64,000 bases of DNA from Actinomycetota bacterium (GTDB lineage: Bacteria > Actinomycetota > Acidimicrobiia > Spongiisociales > UBA11373): positions 1 through 64,000 of the forward strand of contig JAHLKU010000006.1 in the NCBI GenBank assembly GCA_020444505.1. The letters run 5' to 3'. The position numbers were made by a program, and so were the translations under genes. Below are positions 4,546-47,979 of the stretch, piece after piece. Position 1 is the stretch's first letter. Every line of letters starts with the position of its first letter. The notes below the pieces were generated by a model, which saw only the letters and a program-made list of their open reading frames with translations, had not been told where the DNA came from and ran no database searches.

Positions 4546-5775
4546 ATGAGCGACGCAGCCATCCCCTCACCCGAGGCCGGCCGGAGATCACGGTCGGGCA
4601 CCACCTACATGGTGGTCGGGACGATGATCGCCGCCGTCGCCGCCTACCTCTTCCAGTTGATCGGCGCCCGGTCGCTGGGCCCGGAGGCCTTCGCCCCCAT
4701 CGCGGTGCTGTGGACCGTCCAGTTCCTCGTGTTCACGACGGTCTTCATGCCGATGGAGCAGCTCACCATCCGCAGGCTCAACGCCGCCGAGAGCCTGGCC
4801 GCCCCCTGGAGCCTGTTCCTCGGGCTCATCGCCGCCGCGACGGTGGGTGCGGTGCTGTACGGCGTCGCCACCCTCGACCGCTCGTTCGACGGCGACGCCT
4901 GGTACCTGCTGATCCTGGGGGTGCTGATCGTCGCCTACGGCGGGTTCGCCATCGGGCGGGGCTTCCTGGCGGGCCGGCTCCGGTACCGGGAGTACGGCCT
5001 CTCCACCTTCGCAGAGTCGATGCTCCGCCTGGTGCTCGCGGTGGCGTTGCTCGCTGCGGGGGTGGGCGCGCTCGGCCTGTCGTGGACCCTCGTCGCCGGG
5101 GCCCTCGTGATCTGGCTGTGGAACCCGCTGCGCGGCGAGCGCAGCCGGGAGGAAGGGGCCGAGCGAGAGGCGGGCTCCACCGGCACCCTGGCCACGTTCA
5201 TCACCGCCAACGCGGCGTCCCAGACCATCGTCGCCGCCGGCCCGCTCGTGGTGGGGATGCTCGGCGCCGCCAAGGCGGAGGTCAGCATCTTCTTCGAGAC
5301 CTTCCTGCTGTACCGGGCCCCGCTGACCGTGTCCTACAGCCTGGTGGCCCGGGTGCTCCCGCCGTTCACCCGCATGGTGGAACGGGGCGAGACGGCCACG
5401 ATCAAGCGGTGGGCCGCCCGCATCTCGGCGGCCGGCCTGGTTGCGGCGGGCGCGGCCTTCGGCATCGGGCTGGTGATCGGGGACGACCTGGTGGCGATCC
5501 TGCTCGGAGAGCAGTTCCGCCCGTCGAGCGAGCTCGCCGCGCTGGCGGTGGCGGGGGTGACGCTGGCCACCGTCGCCCTGTTCGAGCAGCAGTTGCTGAT
5601 CGCGATGCGCTCCACCCGCCGCATGGCGCTGGCCTGGGGCATCGCGCTGGCGGTGGCCGCCCTGTTCCTGGTGCCCGACGGCGCCGGCCCGTCCATCCGG
5701 GCGGGGCGGGCGTTCCTGGCCGGCGAGATCACCGCCCTGCTGGGGCTGACCGCAGCCATCCTCCGCCGCGACTAG
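4546..5775 (+). CDS. polysaccharide flippase/oligosaccharide exporter-like membrane protein (MATE/Wzx type)
   Basis: multi-TM protein, N-terminal GTTYMVVGTMIAAVAAYLFQLIGARSLGPEAFAPIAVLW typical of Wzx-like flippases; next to a sugar transferase. Confidence 0.75.
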   Translation: MSDAAIPSPEAGRRSRSGTTYMVVGTMIAAVAAYLFQLIGARSLGPEAFAPIAVLWTVQFLVFTTVFMPMEQLTIRRLNAAESLAAPWSLFLGLIAAATVGAVLYGVATLDRSFDGDAWYLLILGVLIVAYGGFAIGRGFLAGRLRYREYGLSTFAESMLRLVLAVALLAAGVGALGLSWTLVAGALVIWLWNPLRGERSREEGAEREAGSTGTLATFITANAASQTIVAAGPLVVGMLGAAKAEVSIFFETFLLYRAPLTVSYSLVARVLPPFTRMVERGETATIKRWAARISAAGLVAAGAAFGIGLVIGDDLVAILLGEQFRPSSELAALAVAGVTLATVALFEQQLLIAMRSTRRMALAWGIALAVAALFLVPDGAGPSIRAGRAFLAGEITALLGLTAAILRRD

Positions 5776-5778
5776 CGG

Positions 5779-7056
5779 TCAGCGGGCCCCGAAGCCCGAC
5801 ATCACCGTCCACACGCTGCGGCCCAGCACCTCGAGGTCGAGCCACACCCCGACGTGCTTGACGTAGTACAGGTCGTAGGAGAGCTTCTCGATCGTGTCGG
5901 CGTGGCCGTCGGCGTACCCGAAATTCACCTGGGCCCACCCGGTCAGCCCGGGCCGCACCAGGTGGCGGTGCGTGTAGAACGGGATGGTCTCGGAGAACCT
6001 CTCCACGAACGGCCCCTGCTCCGGGCGCGGCCCCACCAGGCTCAGATCGCCGCGCAGCACGTTCCACAGCTGCGGCAACTCGTCCACCCGGATCAGCCGC
6101 AGGAATCGGCCCACCCTGGTGAGCCGGTCGTCGGAGCGCGAGGCGAACCGCGCCTCACGCTCGCCCTCGTTGTTCGTCCGCATGGTGCGGAACTTGTAGA
6201 GCGTGAACGGCCGCCCCTCCAGGCCGATGCGGCGCTGCTTGAACACCACCGGGCCCCGGGAGTCGAGCCGGATGGCGACGGCGATCAGCCCCCCGAGCAC
6301 CAGCGCCACCGGGGCGGCCAGCAGCACGGCGAGCGTGTCGAAGAGGCGCTTGGTCCGCACGTACGGCCCCCTGCCCTCCAGCGGCACCGTCAGCTCCCAG
6401 CCCTCGTGCAGGTGGACGATCGCCAGCCGCCCGGTGTGCTCCTCGTACGCCGAGGCCAGCGAGCGCAGCGGGTACCCGGCCAGGTTGCTGGACGACACGA
6501 ACCGGGCCATCTCGTCGGAGAGCACGGACCGCAGGTCCACGGCGAGCGTCGTCCCCTTGGGCAGCGGCCGCTCCGGCACCGGCCCGGCCGGGTCGAGCAC
6601 CTCGACGATCTGGGCGTGGGGCGCGGTCAGGAGGTGGTCGACCAGTTCCTTCTCCCCGGTCACCACCACCAGCGGCTCGGTCCACGGGCGGCGGCGGCGG
6701 ACCGCCCGGTGGGCCAGTTCCAGGGCCAGCCACACGCCGGCCGCCCAGCCCAGGTACGACCGTGAGAAGTAGGCACGGGAGAACACCAGGGTGAACGCCG
6801 ACACCGTCACCGCCACCATGAAGACGGAGAACGCCCGCCCGTAGGAGGGCCGCGGCACCTCCTTGCCGGCCGATCGGTACGCGACGTAGCAGCCGACCAC
6901 CGCCCCGAACAGCAGCGAGCCGACCAGCGGCCCGACGTCCTGGCGGAAGTGCCACGGCAGCACCGTGCCGAACACCACGATCGAGGCGACGACGAGTGCG
7001 ACCAGCAGCGAGCCGATGTCGAGGCCGATCGAGAGCGCGAGCTTCCGCCCTGCCAT
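5779..7056 (-). CDS. exopolysaccharide biosynthesis polyprenyl glycosylphosphotransferase (bacterial sugar transferase)
   Basis: KRLFDTLAVLLAAPVAL, FKQRRIGLEGRPFTLYKFRTM, RVDELPQLWNVLRGDLSLVGPRPE, RHLVRPGLTGWAQVN. Confidence 0.93.
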   Translation of the reverse strand: MAGRKLALSIGLDIGSLLVALVVASIVVFGTVLPWHFRQDVGPLVGSLLFGAVVGCYVAYRSAGKEVPRPSYGRAFSVFMVAVTVSAFTLVFSRAYFSRSYLGWAAGVWLALELAHRAVRRRRPWTEPLVVVTGEKELVDHLLTAPHAQIVEVLDPAGPVPERPLPKGTTLAVDLRSVLSDEMARFVSSSNLAGYPLRSLASAYEEHTGRLAIVHLHEGWELTVPLEGRGPYVRTKRLFDTLAVLLAAPVALVLGGLIAVAIRLDSRGPVVFKQRRIGLEGRPFTLYKFRTMRTNNEGEREARFASRSDDRLTRVGRFLRLIRVDELPQLWNVLRGDLSLVGPRPEQGPFVERFSETIPFYTHRHLVRPGLTGWAQVNFGYADGHADTIEKLSYDLYYVKHVGVWLDLEVLGRSVWTVMSGFGAR

Positions 7057-7070
7057 GGTCGGTCAGCGTA

Positions 7071-8552
7071 CTAGTCCGCGGCGTTCCCGCTCGCGGTTCC
7101 GGCTCGACCCTCGGCGATCGCCGACGCCAGCGCCACGATCGTGCGCACCCCGAATCCGGTGCCGCCCTTCTGGACGTAGTGCTCGGCATCGGAGGCCCGC
7201 GCCGGTCCTGCGATGTCCAGGTGCGCCCACGGCACGTCGCCCACGAACTCCTGCAGCAGCAGCGCCGCGTTGATGGCCCCGCCGTAGCGCGGCCCGGTGT
7301 TCTTCATGTCGGCGACGTCCGAGTCGATCTTCTTGCGGTAGTCGGCGGGCAGCGGCATCTGCCACACCCGCTCGCCTGCGGCTTCCGCAGCGCGCTGCAC
7401 CGCCTCGGTGGCGTCGGCCGTCCCGAACAGTCCGGCGATCTTGTCGCCCAGCGCGATCATGCAGGCGCCGGTGAGCGTGGCCAGGTCGAGGATCATGTCG
7501 GGACCCTGCTCCACGGCCAGCGAGAGGCCGTCGGCCAGCACCAGGCGGCCCTCGGCGTCGGTGTTCAGCACTTCGATGGTCTTGCCGTTGCGCGCCGTCA
7601 GCACGTCGCCGGGGCGCTGGGCGGCGCCGCCGGTCATGTTCTCCGTCAGCGGCGTGATCCCCAGCACCTTCACCGGCAGCCCCAGCCCGGCGATCACCCG
7701 CATGGCCCCGAAGACGGCGGCGGCACCCGCCATGTCGGTCTTCATGGTCTCCATGGAGGCGGCGGGCTTGATCGAGAGGCCGCCGGAGTCGAACACGATG
7801 CCCTTGCCGACGATGGCGAGGAAGCCGCGGGCGTCCTCGGGCTCGTGCCAGATCTGCACCAGCCGCGGCGGGTTGGCGGCGCCGAGCGACACGCCCCGCA
7901 GGCCGCCGAGGCCCTCCGCCTCGATCCGGCCCTCGTCCCACACCTCGATGCGCATGCCGGCGGCCTCTGCCATCTCGGTGGCGATGCGCGCCATCTCCAC
8001 CGGCGGCTTGTACATCGCCGACTCGTTCACCAGGTCGCGGGCCATGGCCACGCCTTCGGCGACCAGCGCGCCGAGGCGGGCGGCCTCCACGTCGCCGTCG
8101 CCTGCGCCGAGCAGGGTCAGCGTCTCGGTGAGCGCCGGCTTCGGCTCACTGCGATGGCGGTCGAACCGGTACTGGCCCAGCAGGAACCCCTCGGCCACGG
8201 CACGGGCCGCGCCGTCGGCGCCGGCCCCATGCAGCGACGTGGCCACCGAGGCGGCGCGGGTGACGGCGCGGGCGCCGAGGCCGGCGGCCTGTCGGACGTC
8301 CTCGGCGTCGGGCGACTCGCCCATCCCCACGAAGACGACGGTCCGGTACGGGAGATCCCCTCCCGGGACCGACACCACCTGCCCGGGCTTGCCCTGGAAG
8401 TCTGCGTCGTCGAGGTAGCCGCCCAGCCAGTCGCCGAGCGCCCCCGCCGCCCACTCCCCCACGGGGTCGAAGGCACGGCCCTGGAGCGAGCCCACGATCA
8501 GGGCGTCTGCGGCTCCCTCGGCGGCGGCGCCGCCGGCAACGATCTCGATCAT
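7071..8552 (-). CDS. pepA: leucyl aminopeptidase (M17)
   Basis: VGKGIVFDSGGLSIKPAASMETMKTDMAGAAAV, NTDAEGRLVLADGL. Confidence 0.95.
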   Translation of the reverse strand: MIEIVAGGAAAEGAADALIVGSLQGRAFDPVGEWAAGALGDWLGGYLDDADFQGKPGQVVSVPGGDLPYRTVVFVGMGESPDAEDVRQAAGLGARAVTRAASVATSLHGAGADGAARAVAEGFLLGQYRFDRHRSEPKPALTETLTLLGAGDGDVEAARLGALVAEGVAMARDLVNESAMYKPPVEMARIATEMAEAAGMRIEVWDEGRIEAEGLGGLRGVSLGAANPPRLVQIWHEPEDARGFLAIVGKGIVFDSGGLSIKPAASMETMKTDMAGAAAVFGAMRVIAGLGLPVKVLGITPLTENMTGGAAQRPGDVLTARNGKTIEVLNTDAEGRLVLADGLSLAVEQGPDMILDLATLTGACMIALGDKIAGLFGTADATEAVQRAAEAAGERVWQMPLPADYRKKIDSDVADMKNTGPRYGGAINAALLLQEFVGDVPWAHLDIAGPARASDAEHYVQKGGTGFGVRTIVALASAIAEGRAGTASGNAAD

Positions 8553-8556
8553 CCGG

Positions 8557-9099
8557 TCACTCCTCTCGGCTGGGCGTCCAGGTGCCTTCGGCGGCCCTGG
8601 CCAGCATGTACACGTAGTCGGCGAGGCGGTTCAGGTAGGGCACCGCCTCGCTGTCGTCGATGCCTGCGACGCGGCAGTGGGCCACGGCGCGCCGCTCGGC
8701 GCGCCGGATGACCGACCGGGCCTCGTCGAGTGCGGCGGCCAACGGTGACCCGCCGGGGACGACGAACTCGGTCGGCATGCCCACCCGGTCCACGACGCCG
8801 TCGATCGCCGGCTCCAACGCCGCCACCATCTCCGCCGTGACCCGGCTGACACCGTCGGCCAGCTTGCGACGGTTCTCCGTCTCCGTGGCCAGTTCGGCAC
8901 CGACCACGAACAGGTCGCGTTGCACGGCCAGCAGCGCGGCGGCGGTCTCCTCGTCGGCGGCCGCTCTCGCCACCCCGAGCGCCGACACCGCTTCGTCCAC
9001 CGCGCCGGTGGCCTCGGGCCCGGTGCCGTCCTTGGCCACCCGGCCCCCGTAGAGCCTCCCGGTGGAGCCGTCGTCTCCGCTGCGCGTGTAGATCTTCAT
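8557..9099 (-). CDS. cob(I)yrinic acid a,c-diamide adenosyltransferase, PduO type
   Basis: MKIYTRSGDDGSTGRLYGGRVAKD, VPGGSPLAAALDEARSVIRRAERRAV, YLNRLADYVYMLAR. Confidence 0.93.
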   Translation of the reverse strand: MKIYTRSGDDGSTGRLYGGRVAKDGTGPEATGAVDEAVSALGVARAAADEETAAALLAVQRDLFVVGAELATETENRRKLADGVSRVTAEMVAALEPAIDGVVDRVGMPTEFVVPGGSPLAAALDEARSVIRRAERRAVAHCRVAGIDDSEAVPYLNRLADYVYMLARAAEGTWTPSREE

Positions 9100-9123
9100 G
9101 GCCGAGGGGGATTGTACGGGCGA

Positions 9124-9771
9124 TCAGCCGAGCACCGGTCCGGCGGCGAGCAGACGGCCGAGCACCACCGTCCCGATGGCCGTCAGCACCGCCAGGTAGG
9201 ACAGGCCGGTGGCCGCCATCACCGCCGGGTACCCCTCCTCGCCCAGCGCCGCCCACACCGCCGCAGCCAGGGCCACGGTGGTGGCTGCGAGGACCAGGTA
9301 CCCGATGCCGACCGGAGCGTCCCCCGACACCCAGGGGACGGCTCCGAGCACGGCGAGGACGGCGACGTCCACCACCATCCCGGCCCCCGCAGCGGCGTCG
9401 AGGCGCCGCAGCGACCAGCGGGGCAGCCGGGGGTCGACCAGGAACCAGTGGCCCAGCATCATCTCGGCGGTGATCGCCCCCAGCGCCACCGCCCCCGACA
9501 CGCTCGCCGCGACGCCGCCGTCGGGGATCGCAGCCACCACCAGGGCCACTGCGGCGACGGCGAACGACCACGCAGGCGCCCTGGTCCGCACCCCGGCCAC
9601 CGCCAGCGCCGCCGCCGCGCACCCGGCCGCAGCCCACCCCCCGGCGCCGGCGAGCGCGGCGGGGACGCCGAAGAGCAGGATCGTGCCCGCGCTCAGCCAG
9701 ACGTAGCCGGCACCGACCACCCGCCACCAGGCGACCACCGCCGACGCGGCGGCGACACCGCCCGCCCACAT
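9124..9771 (-). CDS. hypothetical multi-pass membrane protein; start uncertain
   Basis: repeated hydrophobic segments; the 271-aa track ORF has an unlikely Arg/Pro-rich N-terminus, so an internal ATG at 9771 was chosen. Confidence 0.6.
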   Translation of the reverse strand: MWAGGVAAASAVVAWWRVVGAGYVWLSAGTILLFGVPAALAGAGGWAAAGCAAAALAVAGVRTRAPAWSFAVAAVALVVAAIPDGGVAASVSGAVALGAITAEMMLGHWFLVDPRLPRWSLRRLDAAAGAGMVVDVAVLAVLGAVPWVSGDAPVGIGYLVLAATTVALAAAVWAALGEEGYPAVMAATGLSYLAVLTAIGTVVLGRLLAAGPVLG

Positions 9772-9941
9772 GGCGAGCACCGACGATGGGGTGATGTCCA
9801 GGGGGGCCTCCGGTCGCGGGCGGCGATCATACCGGGGGTGTGATTCGGGTCCCCGATGCCGAACCGATACAATCCGCGTCACCCCGCGGCCGCTGCGTGC
9901 CTCGCCGCGGCACTCCACCGAAGTTCCAGGAAGGATCAACC

Positions 9942-11669
9942 GTGCCCGACAGCCTCATCGCCCCCCACGGCGGCACGCTCGTCGACCTCATGGCCGCCGA
10001 GCCCCGCGTCGGGGAGCTCTCCAAGGCGTCCCGCGACTTCCCGTCGCTCGACCTCACCGCCCGCCACCTGTGCGACCTCGAACTCCTCATGAACGGGGGC
10101 TTCTCACCGCTCACCGGCTTCCTCGGAAAGGCCGACTACGACTCGGTGTGCGCCGACATGCGCCTCGCCGACGGGACGCTGTGGCCGATGCCGATCATGC
10201 TCGACGTGGACGAGGAGTTCGCCTCCGAAGTCGGTGAGGGCTCCCAGGTGGCGCTGCGCGACGCCGAGGGCGTCATGCTGGCCGTCCTGTCGGTGTCGGA
10301 CGTCTGGAAGCCGGACCGTGAGGCCGAGGCCCGGGCCGTCTTCGGCACCGACGACCCCGAGCACCCCGGCGTGGACTTCCTCCTCAACCAGACCAAGCCC
10401 TACTACCTGGGCGGACGCATCGAGGGCGTGCAGGCGCCCATCCACTACGACTTCCGCACCCTGCGGATGACGCCCGCCGAGGTGCGGGCGCGCTTCACCA
10501 AGCGGGGATGGCGGAAGGTGGTGGCCTTCCAGACCCGCAACCCGATGCACCGGGCCCACCTGGAACTGACGGCCCGTGCCGCCAAGGACGTCGAGGGCAA
10601 CCTGCTGATCCACCCCGTGGTCGGGATGACCAAGCCCGGCGACGTGGACCACTACACCCGGGTGCGGGCGTACCAGGCCATCATGGACCGCTACCCCCGC
10701 AACACGGCCGAACTGGCGCTGCTGCCGCTGGCCATGCGGATGGGCGGCCCCCGCGAGGCCGTGTGGCACGCCATCATCCGCAAGAACCACGGCTGCACCC
10801 ATCTGATCGTCGGGCGGGACCACGCCGGTCCCGGCTCCGACTCGTCGGGCACCCCGTTCTACGGCCCCTACGACGCCCAGGAGCTCCTCGCCGCGCACGA
10901 GGAGGAGATCGGTGTCGTCCAGGTGCCCTTCAAGATGATGACCTACCTCCCCGACGAGGGCACCTACATGCCGGTGGACCAGGTCTCCGAGGGGACCAAG
11001 ACGCTGTCGATCTCCGGCACCGAACTGCGGGAGCGGCTCGCAGACGGACGGGAGATCCCCGAGTGGTTCACCTTCCCCTCCGTCGCCGAGGAACTGCGCA
11101 AGACCCACCCGCCGCGGGCCCGCCAGGGGTTCACCGTGTTCTTCACCGGCCTGTCCGGCTCCGGCAAGTCCACCATCGCCAACGTGCTGCAGGTGCGGCT
11201 GCTGGAGATGGGCGGGCGGCCGGTGACCCTGCTCGACGGCGACCTGGTCCGCAAGAACCTGTCGAGTGAACTGGGCTTCTCCAAGGAGCACCGCGATCTG
11301 AACATCCAGCGGATCGGCTACGTCGCCTCGGAGATCACGAAGAACGGCGGGATCGCCCTGTGCGCCCCCATCGCCCCGTACGACGCGGTCCGCAAGGTGG
11401 TGCGCAACACGATCGAACCCCACGGCGGCTTCATCCTGGTGCACGTGGCCACCCCGCTCGAGGTGTGCGAGGAGCGGGACCGCAAGGGCCTGTACGCCAA
11501 GGCACGGGCGGGGATCATCAAGGAGTTCACCGGCATCTCCGACCCCTACGAGGTGCCCGAGGACGCCGACATCGTCATCGACACCACCTCGATGTCCGCC
11601 GCCGAGGCGGCCCACAAGGTGATCCTGCACCTGGAGCACCTGGGCTACATCGGGCCCCGCCGCGACTGA
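9942..11669 (+). CDS. cysC: bifunctional sulfate adenylyltransferase / adenylylsulfate kinase
   Basis: ATP sulfurylase FQTRNPMHRAHLEL and VGRDHAGPGSDSSG; APS kinase FFTGLSGSGKSTIAN, LDGDLVRKNLSSELGFSKEHRDLNIQRIGYVA; GTG start after AGGAAGGA. Confidence 0.93.
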   Translation: MPDSLIAPHGGTLVDLMAAEPRVGELSKASRDFPSLDLTARHLCDLELLMNGGFSPLTGFLGKADYDSVCADMRLADGTLWPMPIMLDVDEEFASEVGEGSQVALRDAEGVMLAVLSVSDVWKPDREAEARAVFGTDDPEHPGVDFLLNQTKPYYLGGRIEGVQAPIHYDFRTLRMTPAEVRARFTKRGWRKVVAFQTRNPMHRAHLELTARAAKDVEGNLLIHPVVGMTKPGDVDHYTRVRAYQAIMDRYPRNTAELALLPLAMRMGGPREAVWHAIIRKNHGCTHLIVGRDHAGPGSDSSGTPFYGPYDAQELLAAHEEEIGVVQVPFKMMTYLPDEGTYMPVDQVSEGTKTLSISGTELRERLADGREIPEWFTFPSVAEELRKTHPPRARQGFTVFFTGLSGSGKSTIANVLQVRLLEMGGRPVTLLDGDLVRKNLSSELGFSKEHRDLNIQRIGYVASEITKNGGIALCAPIAPYDAVRKVVRNTIEPHGGFILVHVATPLEVCEERDRKGLYAKARAGIIKEFTGISDPYEVPEDADIVIDTTSMSAAEAAHKVILHLEHLGYIGPRRD

Positions 11670-28941: not shown

Positions 28942-29496
28942 ATGTTCATCGACGCACTCACCACCTTCTTCGCGCTGAGCGCCGTCGTGATCCTCGCCCT
29001 GTTCGGCCTGTGGGCGATCGTCTGGGCAGCGGCGCGGCGCTCGCCGGCGGCGGCCCGCCTCCGGGAGGCGATCGTGGATTCGCTGGGGCCGGCCGCCCCG
29101 TGGCTCGCCTGGGGGATGGCGCTGGTGGCCATGGCCGGCAGCCTCACCTACTCCGAGGTGGCCCACTACGCCCCCTGCGAGTTCTGCTGGTACCAGCGCA
29201 TCGCCATGTACCCCCTGGCGCTCACCCTCGGCATCGCTGCGGTGCGCCGGGACCGCGGGCACTGGCGGTACTCCCTGCCGGTGGTGGCGATCGGGGCGGC
29301 CCTCTCCACCTACCACTACCTGATGCAGCAGTTCCCCGACCTCTCTGCCGGGTCGTGCAGCGCCGCGACCCCGTGCACCGCCGCCTGGGTGTGGGAGTTC
29401 GGGTTCGTCTCGATCCCCCTCATGGCGCTGGCCTGCTTCGCCGCCATCGCGGCGCTGGTGACGATCGGCCGGGCCCATGCCGCCGGTACTGCCTGA
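28942..29496 (+). CDS. disulfide bond formation protein, DsbB family
   Basis: EVAHYAPCEFCWYQRIAMYPLALTLGIAAVRRD plus a second Cys pair GSCSAATPC; four TM segments. Confidence 0.9.
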   Translation: MFIDALTTFFALSAVVILALFGLWAIVWAAARRSPAAARLREAIVDSLGPAAPWLAWGMALVAMAGSLTYSEVAHYAPCEFCWYQRIAMYPLALTLGIAAVRRDRGHWRYSLPVVAIGAALSTYHYLMQQFPDLSAGSCSAATPCTAAWVWEFGFVSIPLMALACFAAIAALVTIGRAHAAGTA

Positions 29497-29542: not shown

Positions 29543-30193
29543 ATGGCCTCCACCAACCGCAACGCCACCGACGCCCAGGGCTCGAAGCGCCGCTCCTTCC
29601 CGCTGGGGTGGGTCCTCGGCGGCGTCTTCACGGTGCTCCTGATCATCACCGTGTTCCTCACCCTCGGCGACGAAGGCACCGCCGCCGCGGACGAGTACGG
29701 CACCCCGTCGGTCACCGGCGCCGCGCTCCCCACGCTGGTCGACACGCTGGAGGACCCGGCGGTGGGTTCGGTCCCGCCGGAGGCCGCCGGCGCCGACTTC
29801 GACGGCACCGACGTCGCCATCACCGACGACGGGCGGCCCAAGATGATCGTCTTCCTGGCCCACTGGTGCCCGCACTGCCAGAACGAGATGCCGGAGGTGT
29901 CCGCCTGGGTGGCCGCAGGCGGCCTGCCGGACACCGTCGATCTCTACGCCGTCGCCACCTCCATCGACCCGTCCCGGGACAACTACCCGCCGTCGGCGTG
30001 GTTCGAGCGCGAGTCCCTGGACGTGCCCACGATCGTGGACGACGCCCGCAACACCATCGGCAACGCCTTCGGCCTCAACGCCTACCCGTTCTGGGTGTTC
30101 GTCCAGGACGACGGCACCATCGCCGCCAGGATCTCCGGGGTCCTCAGCCAGGACGACCTCACCCAGATCGCCACCAGCCTCGCCGACCAATGA
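29543..30193 (+). CDS. TlpA/ResA-like membrane-anchored thiol-disulfide protein 1
   Basis: N-terminal TM; MIVFLAHWCPHCQNEMP; NAFGLNAYPFWVFVQDDG. Confidence 0.87.
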   Translation: MASTNRNATDAQGSKRRSFPLGWVLGGVFTVLLIITVFLTLGDEGTAAADEYGTPSVTGAALPTLVDTLEDPAVGSVPPEAAGADFDGTDVAITDDGRPKMIVFLAHWCPHCQNEMPEVSAWVAAGGLPDTVDLYAVATSIDPSRDNYPPSAWFERESLDVPTIVDDARNTIGNAFGLNAYPFWVFVQDDGTIAARISGVLSQDDLTQIATSLADQ

Positions 30194-44622: not shown

Positions 44623-45105
44623 CTAGATCACCTTGTCGCCGATGCCGGCGACCTGGCGCAGCAGTTCGGCCTGGCCGGTGTGGTAGGTGTCGTGGAAGTA
44701 GCGGAAGTGCACCTTGGCGCCGAGCGTCTCGTCGTCGTCGGGGGACACCGGCGCCGCCAGGCCCTCGGGGCCCAGCGCCCGGACCGCTGCGGCGATCTCC
44801 TCACCGCTCCTCCGCAGGCCGTCGAGCAGGCGGCCCAGCGCCAGCACGTCGGGGCCGTCCTCGAGCACCGGGTCGGACTCGCGGGCGTACCGGGCGGTCT
44901 CCGCCGCGGGGACCACCCTGGGGCGCCCCAGCATCTCCAGCACCAGGCCTCGACCCTCCAGCAGGTGGCCGAGCACCCAGTTGAGGCAATTGACGGGATA
45001 CGGGGTCTGCAGCAACGCGTCGGCGTGGGAGAGGCCCTTCGCCTGCGCCTCCAGGATCCAGGTGTTCCGCTCGAAGCCGTCGGCGAGCAGGCCGGGGTCG
45101 ATCAC
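44623..45105 (-). CDS. DinB-family / damage-inducible-like protein
   Basis: [19 protein letters not shown] and [22 protein letters not shown] metal-site His pattern. Confidence 0.75.
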
Positions 45106-46040
45106 GTCGTGCCCGCCAGGTCGGCCCTGCTCCGCAGGTCGGCGTGCTCCTCGCCGAAGGCGAAGTCCCAGAAGGCGTTGGATGCGGCAGTGCCCGCCAC
45201 CTCGGGGTTGCGGATCATGTACAGCGTCGTGGTGATCTCCATGCCCTCGACCGGCACGATCGCCAGGTTGCCGGCCTCCACGGCCTCGGAGGCGACCAGC
45301 GTGGAGACGAAGGCAAGGCCCAGCCCCTCCTGGACCGCCATCCGGATGGCCTCGCTGTTGCCGAGCGTCATCGACAGCGGCAGGTCCTCGGGGGCCAGGT
45401 CGTGCCAGGCCAGCGCCTCCCGAACGGCGACGGCGGTGCCCGAGGTGTCCTCCCGCGAGATGTACCGCTCGGTGGGCAGCTCCTCGGGGAGGACCGGCGC
45501 GGTGCGGGTGGCCCACGGGTGGTCGACCGGAGCGATGAGCCCGATGCGGTCGGTCATGAACGGGCGGTACTCCAGGCCCCGCACCGACTCGAGCACGCTG
45601 GCCAGGCCGATGTGGGCCTCGCCGTCGGCGAGGCGGCCGATCGCCACCGCGCGCGGCACGACGAGGCAGGTGGTCTCCACCTGGGGGTGCGCCTCCTGGA
45701 AGCGGGCGAGGAGGCGGGGCAGGACGTACTTCCCGGCGGTGGTGGTGCAGACCAGGCGCAGCGCGCCGATCACCTCGCCCATGATGGAGGCCATCGCCTC
45801 CTGCATCGACACCGCCCGGTGCGTGAGGTCGCGGGCCATGGGGATGAGCGCCTCGCCGGCCTCGGTGAGGGCGACGCTGCGGCCCGAGCGCTGGAACAGG
45901 TCCACCCCGAGCTGCTCCTCCAGCGACCGGATCTGCATGCTCACCGCCGGTTGGGAGATGCCGACGCGGCGGGCGGTCTCGGAGAAGTTCTCGGTCTCGG
46001 CGGCGACCAGGAAGACACGGAGCTCGGAGAGCGACAGCAT
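45102..46040 (-). CDS. LysR-family transcriptional regulator (CysB/CbbR-like)
   Basis: LSELRVFLVAAETENFSETARRVGISQPAVSMQIRSLEEQLGVDLFQRSGRSVALTEAGEAL. Confidence 0.93.
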   Translation of the reverse strand: MLSLSELRVFLVAAETENFSETARRVGISQPAVSMQIRSLEEQLGVDLFQRSGRSVALTEAGEALIPMARDLTHRAVSMQEAMASIMGEVIGALRLVCTTTAGKYVLPRLLARFQEAHPQVETTCLVVPRAVAIGRLADGEAHIGLASVLESVRGLEYRPFMTDRIGLIAPVDHPWATRTAPVLPEELPTERYISREDTSGTAVAVREALAWHDLAPEDLPLSMTLGNSEAIRMAVQEGLGLAFVSTLVASEAVEAGNLAIVPVEGMEITTTLYMIRNPEVAGTAASNAFWDFAFGEEHADLRSRADLAGTT

Positions 46041-46080
46041 AACGATTCCAAGGATATCAGCCCGTCACCGGTCATCTCAC

Positions 46081-46109
46081 GTTATCGACTGTAAGGGCGG
46101 CCTGATAAC
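46081..46109. promoter_or_regulatory. inverted repeat GTTATC-N17-GATAAC in the divergent lysR / octaheme cytochrome intergenic region; candidate LysR operator
   Basis: read directly in a region that is less GC-rich than its surroundings. Confidence 0.4.
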
Positions 46110-46205
46110 CAGACGGGATGCTCATACGAGGTCACTAGCATGGCCCCTGATACGTGGGGGATGACGACATCGTGTCGCCATCCCGGGACCGACAGAGAGG
46201 TGCGC

Positions 46206-47921
46206 ATGTCGAAGAAGATGCCCCGCTGGGGCGGCGTCGTGGTCGCCGCCGCTGCGGCCGCGGTCGTCCTCGTGCTCGGGGTCGTGGCCGCAGGCGCCCA
46301 GGACGGCGGGACGATGGACCATTCCCAGCTCCCCCAGTTGGCCGGCCCGTTCGAGACCGGCCCGGACGTCACCGCCGCCTGCCTGCAGTGCCATGCCGGC
46401 GTCGGGGAGGACATCCTCCACACCGTCCACTGGACGTGGGAGTACGAGAGCGAAGCCACGGGCGAGACCTACGGCAAGCGCAACGTGATCAACAACTACT
46501 GCGTGTCGGTGGCGCCCAACGAGCCGCGCTGCACCAGTTGCCACATCGGCTACGGCTGGACCGGTGACGACTTCGACTTCGGCGACGCAGGCAACATCGA
46601 CTGCCTGGCCTGCCACGACACCACCGGCACCTACAAGAAGTTCCCGACCGCCGCCGGCCACCCGGTCTACGGCGACCCGGTGCTCTTCAACGGCACCGAG
46701 TGGACGGCGCCCGACCTGGCGGCCGTCGCCCAGAACGTCGGGGAGCCGAGCCGCACCAACTGCGGCTCGTGCCACTTCACCGGCGGCGGCGGGGACGCCG
46801 TCAAGCACGGCGACCTCGACACCAGCCTCGCTGCGCCGGACCGCTCGCTCGACGTCCACATGGCCGTCGACGGCGCCGACATGTCGTGCCAGACCTGCCA
46901 CGTCACCACCGACCATGCCATCGCCGGCAGCCGCTACGTGGGCGACGAGCACACCGGCGGCGCGGCCCAGTGCTCGACGTGCCACACCGACGCCCCGCAC
47001 GGCGACGAGGTCCTCAACACCCACGCCGAGAAGGTCGCCTGCCAGACGTGCCACATCCCCGAGTACGCCCGGGCGCAGCCCACCAAGATGACCTGGGACT
47101 GGACCACCGCCGGCACCCCCACCGACGAGGGCACCCAGCCCAACGTCATCACCGACGAGGCCACCGGCAAGGTGATCTACGACAGCCGCAAGGGCTCGTT
47201 CACCTGGGAGGCCGACGTCGTCCCGGTGTACCTGTGGAGCAACGGCGTGTACGACTACTCGCTGCCGGAGGAGGGCGTGGACCCCGGCACCGGGTTCATC
47301 ATCAACGAGGCGCTCGGCGGCCGCGGCGACGGGAAGATCTGGCCCTACAAGCTGTTCACCGGGACCCAGCCCTACGACGCCGGCAACGACACGATCGCCC
47401 CGCTCAACCTGTTCCCCAAGAACGAGGAGGACGGCGCGACGGCGTTCTGGAAGAACTGGGACATGACGCTCGCCGTCGAGGGCGGCATGGCGGCATGGGG
47501 CCTGCCGTTCAGCGGGGAGATCGGTGACATCGACAGCGAGATGCTGTGGCCCATCACCCACATGGTCGCCCCTGCGAGCGACGCGCTCGGCTGCACCGAC
47601 TGCCACGCCGCCGAGGGCAGGCTCGACTGGGTGGCGCTGGGCTACACCGCAGACGAGGCCGAGGGGCTCGGGGCCTTCCCGCCCACGCTGGGCGCCCCGG
47701 AGACCACGACCACCACCGAGGCCGCCGCCACCACCACCACCGAAGCAGCCACGACCACCACGGAGGCCGCCACCACCACGGAGGCGGCCACGACCACCAC
47801 GGTCGTGGCGATGGACGACGAGGGCGGCGGGAGCGGGCCGATGCCGCTGGTGCTGCTCATCGCCGGGCTGGTGCTGCTGGCCGCCGCCGGGGGCTACGCC
47901 CTCGGCACCCGGGAGCGGTAG
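46206..47921 (+). CDS. octaheme c-type cytochrome, OTR (octaheme tetrathionate reductase)-like, with Thr-rich linker and C-terminal TM anchor
   Basis: eight CxxCH: CLQCH CTSCH CLACH CGSCH CQTCH CSTCH CQTCH CTDCH; IDCLACHDTTGTYKK; FTGGGGDAVKHGDLD; TTTEAA repeats then LVLLIAGLVLLAAAGGYALGTRER. Confidence 0.9.
   Translation: MSKKMPRWGGVVVAAAAAAVVLVLGVVAAGAQDGGTMDHSQLPQLAGPFETGPDVTAACLQCHAGVGEDILHTVHWTWEYESEATGETYGKRNVINNYCVSVAPNEPRCTSCHIGYGWTGDDFDFGDAGNIDCLACHDTTGTYKKFPTAAGHPVYGDPVLFNGTEWTAPDLAAVAQNVGEPSRTNCGSCHFTGGGGDAVKHGDLDTSLAAPDRSLDVHMAVDGADMSCQTCHVTTDHAIAGSRYVGDEHTGGAAQCSTCHTDAPHGDEVLNTHAEKVACQTCHIPEYARAQPTKMTWDWTTAGTPTDEGTQPNVITDEATGKVIYDSRKGSFTWEADVVPVYLWSNGVYDYSLPEEGVDPGTGFIINEALGGRGDGKIWPYKLFTGTQPYDAGNDTIAPLNLFPKNEEDGATAFWKNWDMTLAVEGGMAAWGLPFSGEIGDIDSEMLWPITHMVAPASDALGCTDCHAAEGRLDWVALGYTADEAEGLGAFPPTLGAPETTTTTEAAATTTTEAATTTTEAATTTEAATTTTVVAMDDEGGGSGPMPLVLLIAGLVLLAAAGGYALGTRER
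47702..47804 (+). repeat. Thr-rich (TTTEAA)n low-complexity linker-coding repeat
   Basis: imperfect accacgaccaccaccgaggccgcc units. Confidence 0.85.
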
Positions 47922-47948
47922 CCCCGCTCCCCCGACACCGCACCACGT

Positions 47949-47979
47949 GCGAGGGCCCCCCGAACCGGGGGGCCCTCGC
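47949..47979. terminator. bidirectional terminator hairpin, 13-bp perfect stem GCGAGGGCCCCCC-gaacc-GGGGGGCCCTCGC
   Basis: between convergent octaheme cytochrome and sufB genes. Confidence 0.8.

Follow-up and report, generated by a model that had tools for sequence, protein, structure and literature searches.

Although its structure has been solved, OTR, an octaheme cytochrome, continues to be described as an enzyme whose function is cryptic (PMC11024163). Once purified, the protein can use tetrathionate, nitrite or hydroxylamine as a substrate for reduction in vitro, and it has a conserved lysine on haem 2 (PMC11024163). The transcript of one Acidobacteriota otr was up 36-fold on tetrathionate (PMC8528874). 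A cytochrome b beside otr has already been noted in single genomes (PMC7509429; PMC4911364). The branch of the family with a C-terminal membrane anchor is scarcely described so far. Our literature search for octaheme with Acidimicrobi- found no paper on OTR in that group, and a search for OTR with Lys153 found no paper. In Mowat's 2004 account, Lys153 of OTR is said to be the distal ligand of the active haem.

We identified a gene for an anchored, OTR-family octaheme cytochrome of 571 amino acids at 46206-47921 on the forward strand of the window (the whole 64,000-nucleotide stretch of actinobacterial DNA analysed here). NucS, the high G+C content and the range of relatives recovered indicate that the host probably belongs to Actinomycetota. 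The reading frame extends from an ATG at 46206, preceded by the ribosome-binding-like AGAGAGGTG, through 571 codons to a stop at 47919-47921. The best NCBIfam match of the protein is octaheme_Shew (TIGR04315; 559.5 bits, above the curated cut-off of 375 bits; E 5.7e-168; model positions 2-440 of 440), and phmmer against the Shewanella oneidensis OTR (1sp3_A) gives 411 bits. When an AlphaFold2 model built from 30 sequences (mean pLDDT 73) was compared with the PDB, 1sp3 alone matched significantly (E 2.2e-42; TM-score 0.80 when normalised by target length). Membership in the OTR family, which the original prediction had proposed, is near certain.

The octaheme domain (residues 38-480; 46317-47645), delimited by the TIGR04315 match and by alignment of haem sites, contains exactly eight CxxCH motifs, as had been counted before, at residues 59, 109, 133, 186, 228, 256, 279 and 463. 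All eight sites have this form; the CX15CH motif of the SirA/MccA octaheme sulfite reductases and the CXXCK motif of NrfA and octaheme nitrite reductases are absent. Across 62 aligned OTR proteins, including that of Shewanella, the equivalent of Lys153 is Lys200 (46803-46805), which sits in GGGGDAVKHGD and is identical in 62/62. A different lysine, in a YKK motif, had been put forward as the candidate ligand. This motif corresponds to residues 108-110 of 1sp3 and is ruled out by the alignment. Also present is a non-haem cysteine, Cys99 (46500-46502), equivalent to Cys64 of 1sp3, which is near-invariant (98% of the 62 sequences) and invariant in the haem-site alignment. Lys200 and Cys99 are the residues to mutate.

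The domain is preceded by a predicted signal peptide (residues 1-31; 46206-46298), for which the model gives a helix at residues 5-31; the cleavage site between VVAAGA and QD is our reading of the sequence. It is followed by a 57-residue Thr-rich stalk (residues 489-545; 47670-47840) that is predicted to be disordered (model pLDDT about 33); its Thr/Glu/Ala-rich repeat is encoded by direct repeats at 47695-47800. The protein then continues into a C-terminal transmembrane (TM) helix (residues 546-570; 47841-47915; Kyte-Doolittle 2.42), evident from hydrophobicity, from the model and from comparison with the TM helices of relatives, and terminates in RER. The stalk, the single TM segment and the RxR end were all part of the original prediction.

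The anchor is a property of a large clade. In a tree of 62 OTR sequences (469 columns), presence of the C-terminal TM segment separates 33 anchored from 29 non-anchored proteins by one change (support 100/100). Sequences from outside the window's order were gathered using patterns from the window protein and the others by TIGR04315 in relatives, so the sampling is uneven. The anchored clade includes Pseudomonadota, Thermodesulfobacteriota, Bacteroidota, Ignavibacteriota and Chloroflexota as well as three sequences from the window's own order (the window, G016 and G236), and placement of the window OTR within it is well supported. The membrane attachment proposed earlier stands, given the TM segment, but it is peculiar neither to this gene nor to Gram-positive bacteria, as the clade spans several phyla including Pseudomonadota and Bacteroidota. 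The idea of an actinobacterial novelty is rejected on the basis of this tree. The window OTR is sister to that of G016 (99/94) inside a Chloroflexota-rich clade (100/98). The anchored OTRs of Chloroflexota are its closest relatives (up to 62% identity); most of them (L058-L065, L108) carry a fused stretch with about seven additional CxxCH haems ahead of the TM helix, for a total of 15-16.

Above-cut-off OTR was detected in only 8 of 296 genomes of the class and is absent from G001, a member of the same genus as the window's genome. This patchiness, together with a broken anchored copy in G274, could indicate a recently acquired or decaying orphan of little function. We consider this very improbable, given that the frame is intact, that almost all residues invariant across the 62-protein alignment are retained, and that a partnerless anchored OTR of equal layout, 62% identical, occurs in another family. 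The G274 copy (L119; contig C9, about 6200-7800) has an in-frame TGA and a frame change. G236 and G296 have related copies whose frames stay open over the sequence available on their contigs.

Most anchored OTRs are encoded next to genes that could connect them to quinones. Cytochrome b561 adjoins 18 of the 33 and an FeS protein with NrfD adjoins nine. Three of the remaining six keep the TM motif described below, with no b561 found, one lies at a contig end, and the last two are the window OTR and L117, a same-order relative that also has the Thr-rich stalk. No quinone module of either type is located beside these two, as opposed to 27/33 anchored OTRs with one. Because the adjacent module is absent, the window OTR is, at this locus, an orphan variant within the anchored clade. 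The original statement that the gene has no partner is correct for the locus, where neither ccm genes nor a quinol module are adjacent. It does not hold generally, since most anchored relatives adjoin b561 or FeS and NrfD, nor at the genome level, since a second OTR in the same genome has a b561 partner. Partnerless anchored OTRs are thereby identified in an actinobacterial order, and comparison of partnered with orphan proteins makes the question of the electron donor testable.

The TM helix itself shows a pattern suggestive of a link to partner type. An H[GA]..R motif occurs in 18/18 b561-linked anchored OTRs and is absent from 9/9 NrfD-linked OTRs, from the window OTR and from L117; as this pattern follows phylogeny, it amounts to about one change. 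The His and Arg of the motif (L067-L084, L106-L109, L118) may make contact with b561, or act as a ligand, where the two proteins meet.

We found no NrfD in the window's genome or in G016. Two b561 proteins above cut-off are encoded in the window's genome, a multihaem-b561 fusion on contig C86 and a b561-cytochrome c on contig C6; G016 has one, of the C6 type. The region on C6 (L139; G000:C6:7001-27000) encodes CcmF, CcmH, a TlpA-like protein, a cytochrome with nine CxxCH motifs, the b561-cytochrome c fusion, a NapC/NirT-like protein and a lipoprotein-like protein with ten CxxCH motifs. The nonahaem/b561-c pair is also encoded in G016 and in G001. As G001 lacks OTR, the C6 modules are not OTR-specific and are only a candidate donor.

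Exposure on a flexible stalk, lack of a dedicated quinone partner, and the presence of other large multihaem proteins in the genome, including the lipoprotein-like decahaem protein, would also suit a surface electron conduit (to metals or humics, or for extracellular electron transfer more generally) resembling MmcA or OcwA. We consider this role quite improbable. The haem 2 motif and Lys200 are both present in the window OTR, whereas the conduit MmcA has seven haems and has lost haem 2 and the Lys ligand (PMC11024163). The near-invariant cysteine is kept too. With these three features retained, the enzymatic site seems to be maintained.

Divergent from the OTR gene, as originally noted, is a gene for a LysR-type regulator of 312 amino acids (45102-46040, reverse strand; PF00126 and PF03466), for which the best NCBIfam match, NF040786, scores 199.6 bits, under the cut-off of 250. 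Close relatives of this regulator occur in 7 of 198 genomes of the class, the window's own included. The divergent arrangement with OTR recurs in G016. In G023 and G030, from the same genus as G016, the HflX-LysR locus (L154, L155) has no OTR between the genes and no detectable OTR remnant there. Since these genomes keep LysR without OTR, the regulator is independent of OTR, and the case for a dedicated OTR regulator is weakened. Set against L117, the two loci offer a natural comparison, inside one genus, of presence and absence of OTR.

A second LysR copy in the window's genome is 54% identical. It is divergent from an operon (L151; G000:C13, 1374-9298) encoding TusA, DsrE2, DsrE, a GcvH-like protein, a [NiFe] hydrogenase small subunit, TmcC-like and DsrK/HmcF-like proteins and a hydrogenase large subunit, which looks like an Isp-type hydrogenase with sulfur carriers. 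This context suits a role for the regulator in sulfur or hydrogen respiration. LysR genes also adjoin OTR in two Chloroflexota loci (L060, L066), but this is weak evidence because their products share 42-45% identity with the window LysR, less than does the unlinked paralogue. The earlier suggestion of substrate induction through LysR is weakened by the OTR-free loci, although the paralogue does adjoin sulfur and hydrogenase genes. The shared intergenic region includes a dyad, GTTATC-N17-GATAAC (46081-46109), that is a candidate LysR site. It has one match in the window and none in 100 shuffles, for a pattern picked after the sequence had been seen. The dyad is not conserved in L117, and we found no operator common to the two loci.

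Clues to the substrate come from the neighbours of relatives. For 24 of the non-anchored OTRs, 1.5 kb or more of downstream sequence is available, and genes for Sulf_transp (YeeE/YedE) proteins adjoin 21 of these; one YeeE/YedE type, scanned in the window's genome, carries a rhodanese domain. The second OTR of this genome, on contig C86, belongs to the non-anchored branch and is 43% identical to the window OTR. Its locus (L004) comprises the OTR gene (9722-11188), the multihaem-b561 fusion (7239-9824) and a YeeE/YedE-rhodanese gene (5467-6687). Rhodanese genes lie next to nine of the 33 anchored OTRs, and genes for ArsR regulators next to ten. The sampled family thus splits into a non-anchored branch with sulfur transporters and an anchored branch with two alternative quinone modules. 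Because YeeE/YedE, rhodanese and ArsR genes adjoin OTR relatives, sulfur compounds are favoured over nitrogen oxides, and the split by neighbours points to them as the physiological substrate class. Reduction of a sulfur compound is the most likely function of the window OTR, at roughly even odds.

Reduction of nitrite or hydroxylamine, either ammonifying or detoxifying, is in our estimation unlikely. The S. oneidensis OTR has these activities in vitro (PMC11024163; PMC7509429) and no sulfur gene adjoins the window OTR, but the genes that recur beside OTR across the family encode sulfur transporters, rhodaneses and regulators of the ArsR type and are not nitrogen genes, and the protein has no CXXCK haem motif. 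The reaction might instead run oxidatively, for example from thiosulfate to tetrathionate, with electrons passed to the respiratory chain. Some anchored relatives are from Sulfuritalea and Sulfurisoma, genera that include sulfur oxidisers, and a cytochrome anchored without a partner could be wired to any nearby acceptor. We judge this direction improbable, as the LysR paralogue adjoins a hydrogenase operon, a source of electrons, and as the haem potentials reported for OTR, in a range similar to the -100 to -450 mV of MmcA (PMC11024163), suit reduction.

Genes for haem attachment are located elsewhere in the genome. As CcmF, CcmH and a CcmG/TlpA-like protein are encoded on contig C6, it is unremarkable that no ccm genes adjoin OTR; ResB was not found in the genome. 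The dsbB gene placed about 17 kb from OTR in the original prediction was identified (DsbB at 28942), with one TlpA/redoxin-like protein at 29543. The hairpin reported downstream of OTR corresponds to a perfect 14-bp inverted repeat with a 3-nt loop (47949-47979) that separates OTR from sufB, the two genes being convergent. Neither flank of the repeat carries a T run, and for this reason it was not called by the terminator scan, which revealed no relevant consensus promoter or terminator.

The explanation that we favour, with a probability of about 0.5, is that the window OTR is a surface-held reductase of the C-anchored clade that is fed from quinone via other cytochromes and reduces an oxidised sulfur compound. 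The protein would be exported by Sec and receive its haems from the Ccm system encoded on C6, and the TM helix and flexible 57-residue stalk would hold it on the outer face of the cytoplasmic membrane. We infer the outward orientation from the signal peptide and the requirement for haem to be attached outside. Electrons may pass from the quinone pool to another cytochrome module of the genome and from there to the OTR, with no dedicated subunit, probably through exposed haem-to-haem contact. Candidate donors are the b561-cytochrome c/nonahaem/NapC-like set on C6 and the multihaem-b561 fusion on C86. Haem 2, with His113 and Lys200 as putative ligands, would reduce a compound such as tetrathionate or thiosulfate, and Cys99, close to haem 2 in sequence, may have a role. 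More tentatively, it is possible that the anchored OTR of this actinobacterial order has shed its quinone subunit and become a free-standing, tethered surface reductase that draws on a general surface multihaem network. In that case, shared cytochromes instead of a dedicated complex would supply the electrons with which extracellular sulfur compounds are reduced.

Several known systems share parts of this organization. The SirACD and NrfABCD layout (a multihaem reductase with FeS and NrfD proteins) resembles the Chloroflexota OTR loci, but includes an NrfD component that the window's genome lacks. The OTR-FeS-NrfD loci of Chloroflexota (L058-L066) encode the closest relatives, two with LysR beside OTR, and differ from the window locus in having the FeS and NrfD module. 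The C-anchored OTRs with b561 from Sulfuritalea, Rhodoferax and Ignavibacteria share the clade and the C-terminal anchor, but have an adjoining b561 and the TM motif (18/18), neither of which is found for the window OTR. MmcA of Methanosarcina is likewise an OTR-related multihaem cytochrome, but without the haem 2 and lysine that are kept here (PMC11024163). The OTR of S. oneidensis (SO4144, PDB 1sp3) is periplasmic and has no tail, whereas the window OTR has a stalk and TM anchor, and the two lie in opposite halves of the OTR tree. They are nonetheless 46% identical over 450 residues and share TIGR04315, the eight haems, the equivalents of Lys153 and Cys64, and the fold.
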